Shown here one piece after another: positions 19,684 through 25,623 of a DNA stretch of 64,000 nucleotides. This DNA comes from Synechococcus sp. JA-3-3Ab (lineage in GTDB: Bacteria > Cyanobacteriota > Cyanobacteriia > Thermostichales > Thermostichaceae): assembly GCF_000013205.1 (NCBI RefSeq), contig NC_007775.1:2315001-2379000 (forward strand), read 5' to 3'. Position numbers and translations under genes: made by a program. Positions within the stretch are counted from its first letter, which is position 1. Each line of letters begins with the position of its first letter. The notes beneath the pieces were generated by a model that did not search any database, was not told the DNA's origin, and saw only the letters and a list, made by a program, of their open reading frames with translations.

Positions 19684-19738
19684 GGCCCTGGGGATCCTGC
19701 ACCCTATGGTACCTGCAGGGGAGTTGACAGGCTGTCTT

Positions 19739-19767
19739 TTGACCTAACCTGACCTAGTGGAGATAAT
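19739..19767 (+). promoter_or_regulatory. Promoter of the petJ copper operon with an internal direct repeat
   Basis: TTGACC (19739-19744), 17 bp, GATAAT (19762-19767), which predicts a start near 19774 and a 55-nt leader to petJ. Two GACCTA copies at 19741-19746 and 19751-19756, exactly one helical turn apart, overlap the -35 box and the spacer. This is where a copper-responsive repressor could bind; no regulator is known from the sequence. Confidence 0.5.
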
Positions 19768-19828
19768 GGTCTAGCTTCAAAAGCTGGATTTTTCCATGAG
19801 CGGTTTTTTGCAGATTGTTGAGAGGAAA

Positions 19829-20176
19829 ATGCGGATCATCAAGTTTTTCTTGCTCCTTTTGCTGGTCGGCGCCGCCGTCTTCTGGGGCCCGCAGGTGGCT
19901 TCTGCGGAACCGGATTTGGCTTTGGGTGCCAAGGTCTTTCAGGCCAAGTGTGTGGGCTGTCACTTGAACGGTCGCAACACTCTGGTGGCGGCGAAAAACC
20001 TTTCCCTGGCTGCCCTGCACGAGTACCACGTGGATACCCCTGAGCTGATCCAAGCCCAGGTGCGCAACGGCAAAGGGGCCATGCCCGCTTTTGGCAAGCT
20101 CCTCAAACCAGAAGAAATCGAAGCCGTGGCCGCCTATGTTCTCGACCGGGCTGAGCACAACTGGAGCAAAGGCTGA
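19829..20176 (+). CDS. petJ: Cytochrome c6
   Basis: 115 residues from ATG 19829 (preceded by GAGAGG); an ATG at 19796 is possible but would put a charged tail before the signal peptide. Signal MRIIKFFLLLLLVGAAVFWG is cut after ASA near residue 26. The mature protein of about 89 residues has the haem motif CVGCH (C41-H45) and axial Met in GAMPAFG (M85). It carries electrons from cytochrome b6f to photosystem I in the thylakoid lumen, generally replacing plastocyanin when copper is scarce. Its stop codon overlaps the next start (TGATG), so the two are translationally coupled. Copper-handling genes follow. Confidence 0.9.
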   Translation: MRIIKFFLLLLLVGAAVFWGPQVASAEPDLALGAKVFQAKCVGCHLNGRNTLVAAKNLSLAALHEYHVDTPELIQAQVRNGKGAMPAFGKLLKPEEIEAVAAYVLDRAEHNWSKG

Positions 20177-20523
20177 TGGCTCAGGAGAGGACTCAAGATC
20201 TGACCTTGGCTCCGAAAAATTCTGTCGCCCCGGTGCCGCAGGAGCAGGGCTGTGGAGCACAGGGATCCCGCCGCAAAATCTTGTCGGTTGGTGTGGGGGC
20301 GCATGGTTTGGTGGCCGTCGGCATCTCCGCCCACGGGGTGGTGGCCATAGGCGTGGTGACCCACGGCATTCTCTCCATTGGCCTGGTGGCGATGGGCGCC
20401 CTCTCTTTTGGGCTGGTGTCGATGGGCCTGGCCAGCGCCGGCCTGGTGTCCATGGGCCTCTCCAGTTGGGGTCAGCACAGCATGAGCGTAACCGAATCCC
20501 ACGGATCCCATCGCCATCCCTGA
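20176..20523 (+). CDS. Glycine-pentad protein with a His/Met ladder, candidate copper protein
   Basis: 115 residues, no family recognised. After a polar N-terminus (with C26) residues 35-99 are thirteen five-residue units of pattern hydrophobic-hydrophobic-small-X-Gly, with Gly at every fifth position from 39 to 99. The X position alternates. Every second unit carries a metal-ligand type residue: His 43, 53, 63, then Met 73, 83, 93 and 103, exactly ten residues apart. The units between have V, I, F, A or W. The tail adds His 101, 109, 112, 114. Codons differ between units, so this is not a recent tandem duplication. It is coupled to petJ upstream and followed by YcnI-like and CopC-CopD genes. 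A copper-binding stack or a membrane-buried beta-helix is inferred, not shown. Confidence 0.75.
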   Translation: MAQERTQDLTLAPKNSVAPVPQEQGCGAQGSRRKILSVGVGAHGLVAVGISAHGVVAIGVVTHGILSIGLVAMGALSFGLVSMGLASAGLVSMGLSSWGQHSMSVTESHGSHRHP

Positions 20524-20553: not shown

Positions 20554-20567
20554 AAAGGAGATTGGAA

Positions 20568-21134
20568 ATGGGTCTGCAAAGTTACTTAGCTCTAGCCAGA
20601 AAATCTCTGCTGGCTTTGGGTATGAGCTTTTTGCCTCTTTCTTCTGCCTGGGCTCATGTTACCGTCCATCCCCAAGAAGCCCCGGCAGGCAGCTACACCA
20701 AGCTCACCTTTCGCGTACCCCATGGATGTGATGGCTCCCCAACCAAGCGCTTGCGGGTGCAGATCCCAGAGGGATTTGTTTCCGTGAAGCCGATGGTGCA
20801 CCCTCTGTGGAACATCGAGACGGTCAAAAGGCCGCTGAAGACCCCATACGAGTCCCACGGGAAGATGATCACCGAAACGGTTGCCGAAGTGATCTGGAGT
20901 GGCGGCTCGCTGCCCGATGACCTCATGGATGAGTTCAGCATCCGCGCCAAGCTGCCGGATCGGCCCGGCGAGGTCATCCCCATCCCGGTGATCCAGGAGT
21001 GCGAAAAAGGTGTGCACCGCTGGATCCAGGTGGCGCAGCCGGGCGAGGATCCCAAGAGCTTGCCGGAGCCGGCCCCGCTGCTGAAGCTGACAGGTGGAGG
21101 TGGTGGACAGGGTCATGGTCACGGCAGCCGGTAG
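20568..21134 (+). CDS. YcnI-like (DUF1775) copper-associated periplasmic protein
   Basis: 188 residues from ATG 20568, which AAGGAG precedes by 7 bp. The signal peptide ends SSAWA, so the mature protein starts HVTVHPQEAPAGSYTKLTFRVPHGC. An N-terminal His followed by the V-x-P block is the Cu(II)-binding feature of the YcnI/DUF1775 family. The body (ETVAEVIWSGGSLPDDLMDEFSIRAKLPD) also fits. The C-terminus is a GGGGGQGHGHGS tail lacking the TM anchor seen in some homologues. Third gene of the petJ operon, directly before the CopC-CopD fusion, the partner YcnI usually has in Bacillus (YcnJ). Confidence 0.85.
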   Translation: MGLQSYLALARKSLLALGMSFLPLSSAWAHVTVHPQEAPAGSYTKLTFRVPHGCDGSPTKRLRVQIPEGFVSVKPMVHPLWNIETVKRPLKTPYESHGKMITETVAEVIWSGGSLPDDLMDEFSIRAKLPDRPGEVIPIPVIQECEKGVHRWIQVAQPGEDPKSLPEPAPLLKLTGGGGGQGHGHGSR

Positions 21135-21151: not shown

Positions 21152-22768
21152 ATGTCTCGCCCTAGAAGGGTTTTTGCCTGGATTTGGGCTGGGATCCTCG
21201 GCCTCTCGCTGTGGACGGCTGGGATCCCGCCCGCTTTTGCCCATGCCAGCTTGCTCTCCACTTTCCCGGAAGATGGAGCGGTGCTCCAGGAAGCGCCGAC
21301 GCAAGTGCGGCTGGTTTTCAATGAGCCGGTGCAGCTTACGCAGCTCCAGGTTTTGGACGGAAATGGACAGGTATTGCCCCTGGAAAACCTGGTGAGCAGA
21401 GGCGAGGCACCTCAGGGGGATTTGCCCCGGGGGATCCCAGCGGGGGTTTACCTTGTCAGTTGGCGGGCCATTTCCGCTGATTCCCATCCGGTGAGTGGCT
21501 CGTTTGTCTTCCAGGTGGGGACTGCAGATCCAGAGCTAGTTCAAGCGGTGAGGGCGGCCCAGGTTCGAAAAAGGGATCCCCTGCATTGGCCGCTGGTAGG
21601 TGTGCGCTGGGGGATCTACCTGGGCAGCCTGTTTGTTGTCGGCGTGCTGGGCTGGTGGCGGCTGGTGCGGGGGCGTTCGAGCGTTTTGGGGGCAAATGGA
21701 ATAGAGCTCTCGGATAAGGCCTGGGCTTTCGTGGCAGCTTGGCTGACCCTGAGTTTGACTCTGGTGGCCTTCGGTTTGCACTTGGCTCAGCTTTACCCCT
21801 ACCTCAATGGGCAAAAGCTGCTGAGTGTGATGCTTTCTCCCTATGGCTGGGGTACGGGGCTGCGGCTGGTGGGGCTGGGGATCCTGATCTGGGCCTGCGA
21901 GGGCGGGCCCCGCTGGGCCAACGGCTTGGGGTCGGTGGCGGTGATAGGGTCGTTTTTGCCCATCGGCCATGCCCTCACCAGCGAGTATCCAGCAGGGACG
22001 ATGGCCCTCTTGGGGCTGCACCTGGCCGGCTCGGCTTTTTGGTTGGGGGGGCTGTGGGGGGTGGAGCGCCTGTTGAGCCGATTGCGCCAGCGGGACGGAG
22101 TCCTTGAATGGACTTCCCAATCGGCAGGTGTCATCCAACGATTTTCCGATGTGGCCACCTGGGCTGTGCCGGGGCTGGTGCTGGCGGGAGTGGGGATGGG
22201 CGGGATCCACCGCGGCTGGGACTGGGAGCACCCCTACGGGCAGTACCTCTGGGCGAAGCTGTTGCTGGTGCTGATGATCGTGGGTTTGGGCGCCCACAAC
22301 AAGTTGCGGCTGCTGCCGGCGTTGCGAGAGGGGGTTTGGTCGGCGGGCCGATCCCTGCGCCAAATTGTCCGCCTGGAGTTGGTGGGGCTAGTTCTGGTGC
22401 TGGCCTTGACCAGCTTTCTGGTGGCCCAAGCCCCTCCTGGCCAAGGAGCGGGACCGGCTTGCCAAGAGACATTGAGCTGGCCGGAAGGCAGCCTCCGCCT
22501 GCAGATCCTGCCCTGCCGCCCTGGCAACAACCGCATCCAAGTGGAAGTTAAGGGGATCCCCGCCCAGGAGCTGAGCCTGGAGTTTGACCTCCCCGCACGT
22601 GGGATCCCGCCTCTGCGCCGCCAGGCGCTGCCAAGAGAACCTGGCCAGTTTGAGGTGGAAGATGTCCTCTTGCCCTTAGCGGGAGAATGGCAGCTCAAGG
22701 TAAGGCTGCTGGTGAGCGACTTCGAGGAGCGACGGGAGCAAGTTAGGCTCAGGGTAGAGGATCGCTAA
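21152..22768 (+). CDS. CopC-CopD fusion, copper import protein (YcnJ-like)
   Basis: 538 residues from ATG 21152; the frame is open further up but overlaps the previous gene. The signal ends PPAFA and the mature CopC domain starts HASLLSTFPEDGAVLQEAP (His31). VSWRAISADSHPVSGSFVFQVG supplies D110 and H112, matching the Cu(II) site of CopC. From about residue 150 the CopD part has some eight TM helices. The last 90 residues form a periplasmic beta domain (LQILPCRPGNNRIQVEVKG). Such fusions carry copper across the plasma membrane. The gene ends overlapping the convergent kinase gene by 4 bp. Confidence 0.9.
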   Translation: MSRPRRVFAWIWAGILGLSLWTAGIPPAFAHASLLSTFPEDGAVLQEAPTQVRLVFNEPVQLTQLQVLDGNGQVLPLENLVSRGEAPQGDLPRGIPAGVYLVSWRAISADSHPVSGSFVFQVGTADPELVQAVRAAQVRKRDPLHWPLVGVRWGIYLGSLFVVGVLGWWRLVRGRSSVLGANGIELSDKAWAFVAAWLTLSLTLVAFGLHLAQLYPYLNGQKLLSVMLSPYGWGTGLRLVGLGILIWACEGGPRWANGLGSVAVIGSFLPIGHALTSEYPAGTMALLGLHLAGSAFWLGGLWGVERLLSRLRQRDGVLEWTSQSAGVIQRFSDVATWAVPGLVLAGVGMGGIHRGWDWEHPYGQYLWAKLLLVLMIVGLGAHNKLRLLPALREGVWSAGRSLRQIVRLELVGLVLVLALTSFLVAQAPPGQGAGPACQETLSWPEGSLRLQILPCRPGNNRIQVEVKGIPAQELSLEFDLPARGIPPLRRQALPREPGQFEVEDVLLPLAGEWQLKVRLLVSDFEERREQVRLRVEDR

Positions 22769-25623
22769 GAGCTGCCTAGGGAGTGAGTCTCTTCTTCCCA
22801 AAGGCGACCCTCGTATCCTTGCAACTGGAGAGCAGTTTGGAAGTCCTGACAGGCTCCTTGCCAGTCACCAACGGCAGCGCGGGCTAGGGCACGGTTGCAG
22901 TGGGCTTTGATGTGGCTGGGATCCCGTTCGAGAACCTGCGTGTAGTCGCGGATAGCTGCCGCAAAATCTCCCTGTTGGGCGTAGGCCCAGCCGCGGTTGT
23001 TCAAGGCCCAGAGGCGCGTCTGCGGATCTGGCTCCAGTTGCAGGAGCTGGGTGTAATCGGCCAGGGCCCTCTCTATTTCCCCCGCCTGATCCCAAAGGAG
23101 AGCCCGCCAGAGGAGGGCGTGGCGCTCCTGCGGGTTCAAGGCCAGGACCTGGGTGTAGTCGGCAATGGCCTGCTGCAGCCGGTTGGCCTGGCGGTGGAGA
23201 TCCCCCCGCTGCCGGTAGGCCAGCGCCGCATCCGCCAGCCCCCAGTCGCGGTTGCAGCCTATGGCCCGGTCGAGATCAGCCAACGCTGCCTCCTCGTCTC
23301 CCAAGACTAGGTGTACCGCTGCCCGCAGGGCAAATCCCTGGGAAGCCTGCGGCTGCTCTTGGATCAAGGCCGTGAAATCGGCCAGCGCTCCCTGCCAGTC
23401 TTCCAGCCGCTGCCGCGCCATGCCCCGGTACAAGTGGATACGAGCCATCAGATCCAGCCCATGGGGGCCCCCCGGCTGGCCTGCCCACTGCAGCGCCTGG
23501 GAGAAATCCTCACAGGCTGCTGCCCAATCTTCTTGCTCAAAGTAGATCTGGCCGCGGTCGAAGTAGAGCTGCGGGTTGCGGGGATCCCGCTCCAGGGCAG
23601 CCGTGTAGTCCTGCAGGGCCGCCAAGGGATCCCCCAAAAGCCGGTGAACCTGCCCGCGGCTGCTGCGGGCGCCGACATCGCTGGCATCTAAAGCAATGGC
23701 CTGATTCAAGTCTGCCAGAGCCGCTTCCAGGTGACCCAGCTCCAGATGGGCAATCCCACGCTTGAGGTAGGCCTTGGCCAGCCGGGGATCCAACTCCAGG
23801 GCGCGGTTGAAGTCGGCCAAAGCGCCTGCCGGATCCCCCAACCCCTGGCGGGCCAGCCCCCGGTAGAAATGGGCTAGCGCCAGGGCAGGATTAAGGCGGA
23901 GCGCCTGTTCGCAGTCAGCCAGCGCTGCCTCCAGGGCGTTGTTGCTCAGGTAGGCCACAGCCCGCTGCAGATAGAGCTCCGCTTGAGCTGCCGCCACGGC
24001 TCCCGAAGGCTCCTCCCCCTGCGTAGCCCTCAGCGCAATGGCCTGGGAAAAATCAGTAATGGCCCCTTGCAGATCCCCCAACGCCTGCCGGGCTAGACCG
24101 CGGCGGTAACAGGCCTTGGGGTGGCCGGGATCCAACTGCAGCGCCTGGGTATAGTCCTCAATGGCTCCCTGAAAGTCCAGCAACTGCGCCCGTGCTACGC
24201 CCCGGTTGAAATAAGCTTCCGTATCTTGGGGATCCCGTCGGAGGACCTCGGAAAAATCGGCTACAGCCCCTTGCGCATCTCCCAACTGGCCGCGCACTAC
24301 GCCGCGGTTAAAGTAGGCCCGTACTTCCTCGGGGTTGAGCTCAAGGGCGCGGGAATAGTCCTCGATGGCTTGCTGCGGCTGATCGAGCTGCCGGTAGGCA
24401 TTGCCGCGGCTGTAGTAGGCCAGGGCCCAGTGAGGGTCGAGACGGAGGGCGTGCGTGTAATCAGCAACTGCTCCCTCATAGTTCCCCAGCCGATAGCGAG
24501 CGATGCCGCGGTTGAAATAGGTGCGGGCATCTCCTCCCCCCAGTTGGATGGCGCGGGTGAAATCTTCCACCGCTCCTGCCCAGTCGCCAGTTTTGTAGCG
24601 GACGCTGCCCCGCTGGCTGTGGGCGCGGCCATTCTGGGGATCCAGTTGAATGGCCAGGGTGTAGTCGGCAATTGCTCCCTGCAGATCCCCTTGGCGAGCT
24701 TTTTCCTGGCCGCGGGTTACCAAGCGCATCGCCAAGAGTTGATCCACCGAAAGCTGGGAAAGAGCAGGCGCTACACCTTCGGGGGGGGTAGGCAGGAGAG
24801 GCCGCAGCGCCTCCATCACCTCAGCCGCCGACTGGAAGCGCTCCTGCCAGCGGGGACAGATCATGCGATCTACAATCTCGGCCAGCTCCTTGCTAACTGG
24901 CACCAGATCCCGCCAAAGCAGCTGGCCGGTGCGGGGATCGTCCCGGATCTTGGTGGGGGGACGGCCAGTCAACGCTTGGATGGCCAGCACCCCCACCGAG
25001 TAGATATCGCTGCAGGGTTGGGGCTTGCCGCCAAGCTGTTCTGGGGCTATGTAGCCCACCGAGCCGATTACCGTCGCCACCTGGGTTTGACCGGGGGCGT
25101 GGCTAACCAATCTCCCCACCTCCTTCACCGCCCCAAAGTCAATCAACACCAACTTGCCGTCGAAGTCGCGGCGCATCAGGTTGGCCGGCTTGATGTCCCG
25201 GTGCAGGATCTGGTGGGCGTGGACATGGCGCAGGATCTCGAGAACTTCCCACAGGAGTTGCACGACCTCTGGCTCGCTGAGCGGCTTGCCGTCTACCAGC
25301 TCGTGGGTGAGGTCGTGCCCGGCAATGAACTCCTCGACTAAATAGAACTCCTGATCCTGCTCGAAGTGGGCCAAGAGGCGAGGTACCCGGTCGTAGTTGT
25401 TGAGCCGGTTGAGAACCTTGGCCTCCCGTTCCAACAGCTTGCGCGCCGTGGCCAGGGTGTAGGGATCCGTCGAGAGCGGGCGCAGGCGCTTGACCACGCA
25501 GGGAGTGTTGAAAGTGTCGCGATCCACCGCCTTGTAGGTAACCCCAAACCCTCCTTGCCCCAGAAGGCCGAGGATTTCGTAGCGTCCCCGCAGAATGGCT
25601 CCCGGCTTAACCTTGTCGTCCAT
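22765..25623 (-). CDS. Serine/threonine protein kinase with long TPR array
   Basis: 952 residues. The N-terminal PknB-type kinase (about 12-280) is complete: glycine loop LGQGGFGVTYKAVD, lysine K45, catalytic HRDIKPANL (H141-D143), DFG at 162-164 and the GYIAPEQLGG activation-segment end. The rest is some sixteen tetratricopeptide units (DPQ.A.AYFNRGVAR..LGD..GAI.DYTQAL type), a protein-interaction superhelix. No TM segment is seen, so it is cytoplasmic. Kinase-TPR fusions of this kind are common in cyanobacteria; targets unknown. Lone gene, convergent with the copper operon. Confidence 0.92.
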   Translation of the reverse strand: MDDKVKPGAILRGRYEILGLLGQGGFGVTYKAVDRDTFNTPCVVKRLRPLSTDPYTLATARKLLEREAKVLNRLNNYDRVPRLLAHFEQDQEFYLVEEFIAGHDLTHELVDGKPLSEPEVVQLLWEVLEILRHVHAHQILHRDIKPANLMRRDFDGKLVLIDFGAVKEVGRLVSHAPGQTQVATVIGSVGYIAPEQLGGKPQPCSDIYSVGVLAIQALTGRPPTKIRDDPRTGQLLWRDLVPVSKELAEIVDRMICPRWQERFQSAAEVMEALRPLLPTPPEGVAPALSQLSVDQLLAMRLVTRGQEKARQGDLQGAIADYTLAIQLDPQNGRAHSQRGSVRYKTGDWAGAVEDFTRAIQLGGGDARTYFNRGIARYRLGNYEGAVADYTHALRLDPHWALAYYSRGNAYRQLDQPQQAIEDYSRALELNPEEVRAYFNRGVVRGQLGDAQGAVADFSEVLRRDPQDTEAYFNRGVARAQLLDFQGAIEDYTQALQLDPGHPKACYRRGLARQALGDLQGAITDFSQAIALRATQGEEPSGAVAAAQAELYLQRAVAYLSNNALEAALADCEQALRLNPALALAHFYRGLARQGLGDPAGALADFNRALELDPRLAKAYLKRGIAHLELGHLEAALADLNQAIALDASDVGARSSRGQVHRLLGDPLAALQDYTAALERDPRNPQLYFDRGQIYFEQEDWAAACEDFSQALQWAGQPGGPHGLDLMARIHLYRGMARQRLEDWQGALADFTALIQEQPQASQGFALRAAVHLVLGDEEAALADLDRAIGCNRDWGLADAALAYRQRGDLHRQANRLQQAIADYTQVLALNPQERHALLWRALLWDQAGEIERALADYTQLLQLEPDPQTRLWALNNRGWAYAQQGDFAAAIRDYTQVLERDPSHIKAHCNRALARAAVGDWQGACQDFQTALQLQGYEGRLWEEETHSLGSS

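Follow-up and report, generated by a model that had tools for sequence, protein, structure and literature searches.

The switch between plastocyanin and cytochrome c6 is a classic example of a response to copper, and next to a petJ gene for cytochrome c6 the stretch of DNA analysed here (the window, 64,000 nucleotides of Synechococcus sp. JA-3-3Ab) encodes a small protein, hereafter the pentad protein, in which Gly returns every five residues and His or Met every ten. The question that this locus raises is a double one: is such a register maintained by selection, and, if it is, what would a row of His and Met residues do in a copper operon?

The pentad protein and its operon

The gene (20176..20523; this and the other operon features lie on the forward strand) encodes 115 residues and overlaps the stop codon of petJ by one base, its start codon being contained in the TGATG at 20174-20178. 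The upstream gene, petJ (19796..20176), encodes a cytochrome c6-like protein with a signal peptide and a CVGCH haem motif, matched by Pfam Cytochrome_CBB3 (9e-16) and NCBIfam PetJ (1e-34, with 118.8 bits versus a cut-off of 135). Downstream lie ycnI (20562..21134), from the DUF1775 family of secreted copper-binding proteins (Pfam 1.1e-48), and a copC-copD fusion (21152..22768) of the YcnJ-like copper importer family (Pfam CopC 1.3e-22, CopD 5.5e-20), for which our reading of the sequence favours the ATG at 21152 over a longer GTG open reading frame from 20999. A likely promoter for the whole operon, also read from the sequence, is found at 19739..19767, with TTGACC as the -35 box (19739-19744), a 17-nt spacer and GATAAT as the -10 box (19762-19767). 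In Bacillus, YcnI and YcnJ exchange Cu(II) and help the cells to grow when copper is limiting (PMC12154828). The copper context claimed by the original prediction is real, with petJ before the gene and YcnI and CopC-CopD after it, and copper partners recur in other lineages. Convergent with copC-copD, the reverse strand (22765-25623) carries a gene whose product joins a Ser/Thr kinase to an extended array of TPR repeats, and about 2 kb past the end of the window (C1:2380772-2381319) there are a small Atx1-like HMA open reading frame and a HMA-containing P-type ATPase. An antisense open reading frame at 20134-20517 was judged to be a composition shadow of the repeat.

The register itself is as originally described: Gly occupies 13 of 13 fifth positions (residues 39, 44, 49 ... 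99), and His 43, 53 and 63 and Met 73, 83, 93 and 103 stand directly N-terminal to alternate positions of the Gly period. When residues 35-104 were shuffled 20,000 times, Gly runs at spacing 5 reached at most 7 (13 observed) and His/Met runs at spacing 10 at most 5 (7 observed); this register is not due to chance. The repeat core comprises residues 36-103 (20281..20484) and is followed by a His-rich C-terminal tail, SVTESHGSHRHP (20485..20520). No charged residue is present between residues 36 and 100, no signal peptide was seen, and the genome that encodes the pentad protein contains no paralogue of it, the remaining matches of the own-genome search having E 0.08 or worse.

A cyanobacterial family with a conserved ladder

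An exact-peptide scan of prokaryote genomes, whose reach outside cyanobacteria is limited as the peptides were taken from the query itself, returned 7 cyanobacterial relatives, of which 6 carry the full HHHMMMM register and one (L015) is a decad shorter. Profile searches extended the family to 94/386 genomes at the level of the phylum and, once the profile had been widened, to 111/390 genomes of the class, mostly as a single copy in both cases. The pentad protein thus belongs to a cyanobacterial family, present in about a quarter of the genomes sampled. No relatives were found on plasmids, phages or viral contigs, no NCBIfam or PHROGs model matches the family, and a sequence search of the PDB with the pentad protein gave no match. 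The phylum search also returned a handful of weak hits in f31 and in G074, which were dismissed as matches to low-complexity sequence or to pentapeptide repeats of the usual kind, and a Gly-pentad protein without the ladder (L102, from genome G406) was likewise set aside.

Four types, A to D, were assigned from sequence and without a tree. Type A has the HHHMMMM ladder, type B the same ladder with an inserted Asp (APHDG), type C a T followed by Met, and type D mostly an L followed by Met, mostly with a C-terminal fusion to DUF3721; at least three His/Met residues are found in the tail of 46/52 relatives. The type D loci (L068, L071, L079, L088 and others) are marine Synechococcus/Prochlorococcus-like, their Met ladder being fused to a DUF3721 domain of the pattern GCxGxHxMGxxWMPCxxH and preceded by an N-terminal CGxKPK-type motif. 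Several Prochlorococcus- or Synechococcus-like genomes (L091, L093, L094, L095 and L108) have a second, short copy that stops after the ladder and lacks DUF3721, and whose first ligand is often Arg (APRG).

Loss of His/Met from relatives that keep the Gly pentads, which the original prediction had named as the outcome that would count against it, is not what the alignment of 53 relatives contains: at positions 53, 63, 73, 83 and 93, 263 of 264 cells are His or Met (the sole exception is Cys), versus 5 of 263 at the matching positions of the alternate pentads. In a non-redundant set of 27 sequences with less than 80% core identity, the counts are 133/134 and 3/134, respectively. The ends of the ladder are looser, with His/Met in 26/52 relatives at position 43 (often L, T or R) and in 31/45 at position 103. 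As read from these alignments, the ladder is under selection. Positions 53 and 63 hold nothing but His (in about 26 sequences) and Met (in about 27), with no Leu or Ile; about half of the relatives thus have Met where the window protein has His, and the His-to-Met order "from hard to soft" that had been proposed is not a general trait, being found in types A and B only. Such an interchange of His and Met, with Leu and Ile excluded, would be expected if these residues are ligands of copper(I), and packing hardly accounts for it. It bears on a first alternative, in which the protein would be structural only, i.e., a beta coil of Gly pentads that might sit at a membrane or form oligomers, with the Met and His residues serving for packing and copper acting as nothing but the inducing condition. 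The uncharged core of 65 residues, the beta coil predicted for it and the similar Gly-pentad patterns in unrelated proteins (L102) agree with this possibility, yet five positions take only His or Met, whereas their equivalents in the alternate pentads accept I, V, L, F and A, so that we regard a purely structural role as doubtful.

AlphaFold2 gave a pLDDT of 57 and no fold match for the full pentad protein. For the core (window 20263-20505, 58 sequences) the mean pLDDT was 87.5 and the pTM 0.72, with unbroken beta structure from core residue 13 to 75 in a run in which two of the five models were good and three poor; the beta coil suggested originally is, at this level, also what the core model predicts. 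A Foldseek search against the PDB returned no convincing structural relative of the core (E 0.7 or worse), and the best VIA match, a fragment of EibD, is below Z 8 and has a high rmsd (Z 7.5, 5.9 over 78 residues). Among sequence profiles, the GLTT repeat (PF01744), which is a low-complexity periodic profile, scores 66.3 bits with the window protein (gathering score 21) and matches 53/53 relatives at E <= 0.01. The GLTT motif itself is present in 0/52 of the sequences examined, the window protein included, and membership was rejected as a pattern match. Pentapeptide_2 (PF01469) scores 12.4 bits with the window protein, under its gathering score of 26.4.

A promoter element, PetR and Slr0601

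A genome-wide scan and conservation point to a candidate PetR operator at 19723..19741 (forward strand), 54 bp before petJ, with the sequence GTTGACAGGCTGTCTTTTG and the family consensus TTnGACAnnnTGTCTTTTG. It is the sole site with at most one mismatch in the 2.93-Mb genome of the window, and in aligned upstream regions the block TTGACAGGCTGTCTTTTGAC before petJ is kept in 6 genomes of the genus and is almost identical in L149 and L060, which are distant cyanobacteria. Its TTTTGAC end coincides with the -35 box, and a -10-like box follows 17-18 bases on, a geometry that is also seen in other promoters of the family. Where petJ is not adjacent, TTnGACAnnnTGTCTTTTG also stands before the pentad gene itself: allowing up to two mismatches and a distance of at most 330 bp from the repeat, the element is directly upstream of 36 of the 48 pentad genes of types A to C, and 9 more of these loci have it before petJ or a PepSY operon, which makes a total of 45/48. 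It is absent at the remaining three loci, all from f14, and was found in 0/24 type D loci. Across 16 genomes, the sites with at most one mismatch number 0-6 per genome (0-5, mostly 0, for a reversed control pattern), and are mostly located at pentad, petJ, petE (reversed), PepSY_TM or TPR genes; the few before unrelated genes may be there by chance. In genome G105, mismatch-free elements precede a Tic20-like gene (L210 3591) and a gene for a 290-aa His-rich secreted protein that is followed by a short PepSY_TM protein (L211 3104-4717).

In L203 the element lies in reverse before petE, and in L212 two sites are situated between petE and petJ. At low copper PetR acts as an activator of petJ and a repressor of petE, and PetP, once activated by copper, eliminates PetR (PMC13421787, PMC12292863), which fits forward sites at petJ and reversed sites at petE. 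The genome of the window encodes a PetR-PetP pair (L111 1468-1902 and 1899-2771), and among the genomes tested a PetR profile has a match in 23/23 of those whose pentad gene or pentad operon carries the element and in 0/28 of those that lack it (51/51 concordant, in kin genomes that are not 51 independent trials). PetR and the element thus track each other and, kinship notwithstanding, the deviating genomes are the predicted ones: the f14 genomes and G170 have the pentad gene and lack both element and PetR. Low-copper control is consequently not universal, given that type D proteins keep the Met ladder, and those of three f14 genomes HHHMMMM, all without PetR and the element.

The gene order petJ-ycnI-copCD, whose conservation the original prediction had proposed to check, holds in the genus of the window and is confined to it; lineages outside the genus have in common the promoter element of PetR type and a location close to petJ or petRP. 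The petJ gene is at position -1 of the pentad gene in that genus and nearby in L060 and L149, while petR-petP (a BlaI-type regulator and a M48/M56-type peptidase) is at +1/+2 in L055, L148, L059, L063 and L064 and, at a distance of a few genes, in L011, L015, L145 and L149. Other copper-related neighbours are an Atx1-like HMA protein (L059), DUF305 (L077) and, in L053/L054, where PetR and petJ are not nearby, a CopA-type ATPase, a multicopper oxidase and DUF411; no copper neighbour was seen at the type A loci L150-L157, L159 and L162. Genes for a PepSY_TM membrane protein and for a secreted TPR protein are repeatedly found near petJ, petRP or the pentad gene (L149, L209 3329-4639, L216 2149-3111, L011 and L145), and these genes, which sometimes carry the same promoter element, look like further members of the copper-starvation regulon. 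Plastocyanin is encoded in 78 of about 89 pentad genomes, close to the class background, and this lack of enrichment leaves a plastocyanin-specific role unsupported.

Two Synechocystis-like genomes (L104 and L201) connect the family to a protein that has already been reported. In both, the order is a NTR-like reductase, the element, the pentad gene and a small secreted protein, after which L104 continues with a dnaE-N bearing a split-intein end (in Synechocystis, dnaE-N is slr0603) and LepA, and L201 with other genes. In Synechocystis sp. PCC 6803, slr0600 is ntr (PMC4182526), and slr0601-slr0602, petE and petJ are under PetRP control, the function of Slr0601 being unknown (PMC12382314, PMC7896320). 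On the basis of this synteny in L104 and L201, Slr0601 is very probably the Synechocystis member of the pentad family. The original prediction knew of no described copper carrier or storage protein of this shape; the family is nevertheless not entirely new, as it includes, by synteny, a protein already reported as PetRP-regulated, to which no function had been assigned. Slr0601 fell along with cytochrome c6 (PMC12382314), and through Slr0601 the regulation of the pentad gene is already partly known. Behind the pentad gene, the slr0602-like gene (L201 5557-5946, L104 6301-6717) codes for a small protein that is secreted, is probably helical and contains NPxL segments in repetition; Slr0602 is reported to interact with plastocyanin (PMC7896320).

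Probable copper handling and its alternatives

Taken together, these observations suggest that the pentad protein is probably a Cu(I)-binding beta-repeat protein, induced by copper starvation under the control of PetRP, that helps to acquire or relay copper. In the course of events that we infer, as regards Cu(I) binding, ligand stacking, the relay or buffer role and the direction of transfer, PetP would not degrade PetR at low copper, and PetR would bind the element at 19723-19741 and activate the petJ-pentad-ycnI-copCD operon. The 115-aa product would then fold into a small uncharged beta coil, on which the His and Met side chains, one per decad, would stack into a row that, together with the His/Met-rich tail, would bind Cu(I) and, while copper is being scavenged, relay or buffer it, most likely as a link from the import side (CopCD/YcnI in the window) to cuproproteins, for example plastocyanin or cytochrome oxidase. 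A point against this reading is the compartment, since YcnI and CopC are secreted whereas the pentad protein has no recognizable signal peptide. More tentatively, the ladder may even be a linear Cu(I) relay or wire, with beta-coil steps of about ten residues presenting one stacked Met or His each in an unbroken row within a small hydrophobic protein, for copper movement under scarcity across cyanobacteria. We know of no fold or carrier with a metal-ion ladder architecture.

A second alternative is that of a copper store or sink, in which the ladder would hold several Cu(I) ions as a reserve in the cytosol or a membrane, for example of copper from withdrawn plastocyanin, instead of handing them over. 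The His/Met-rich tail and the five to seven in-register residues that could act as ligands would suit such a reserve, and induction with cytochrome c6 would coincide with the withdrawal of plastocyanin. Copper stores, however, are normally induced by copper excess, whereas the promoter element is that of petJ, on at low copper, and a spacing of ten residues leaves few ligands per metal, for which reasons we consider a store unlikely. As for a haem or cytochrome c6 assembly factor, whose His/Met row would handle haem (the axial haem ligands of cytochrome c6 are His and Met) and whose gene would be induced to support cytochrome c6 production, two points are in its favour, the overlap of the petJ and pentad reading frames in the window and the common promoter element, but members of types C and D almost lack core His, L053/L054 have the CopA/multicopper oxidase/DUF411 context, with PetR and petJ not nearby, and the YcnI-CopCD of the same operon is a copper system, which makes this option very improbable.

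The PetRP regulon had been described as only four proteins, two of them of unknown function (PMC7896320). Of these two without a proposed function, one would now be given a concrete role, the probable handling of Cu(I) via a conserved Met/His ladder; the candidate PetR operator predicts the regulon across cyanobacteria; and in one lineage the regulon is tied to an established module for copper import. In the open-access literature searched we found neither the ladder and its conservation nor the consensus of the operator, nor how far the family extends, and, if the ladder binds metal as drawn here, it would be a protein architecture for metals apparently not described before.

Comparison with known systems delimits what is particular to this family. 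The GLTT repeat shares with the pentad protein a five-residue period with Gly, but to our knowledge the alternation of His/Met by decads is no part of that family. The YadA/EibD beta-rolls and the beta-helices of pentapeptide repeats are short-period beta coils, as is predicted for the pentad core, although of other repeat length and without a metal ladder. With the Csp copper storage proteins and the Atx1/CopZ chaperones the likeness is functional, namely the proposed intracellular handling of Cu(I): Csp proteins are Cys-lined four-helix bundles, whereas the pentad core lacks Cys and is predicted to be beta, and Atx1/CopZ are HMA folds with CxxC, whereas the pentad protein has no Pfam match to the HMA domain (PF00403) and, over its whole length, no CxxC. 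Bacillus subtilis YcnI and YcnJ are the same operon partners as in the window and both serve copper limitation (PMC12154828), although the ycnKJI operon has no pentad counterpart and the pentad protein resembles neither of them. The closest likeness in gene place is that of Slr0601, by synteny (NTR-like gene upstream, small secreted protein downstream) and by a petJ-type promoter element; the Synechocystis-like members are of type C, with T then Met and no core His, whereas the window protein carries the HHHMMMM ladder.
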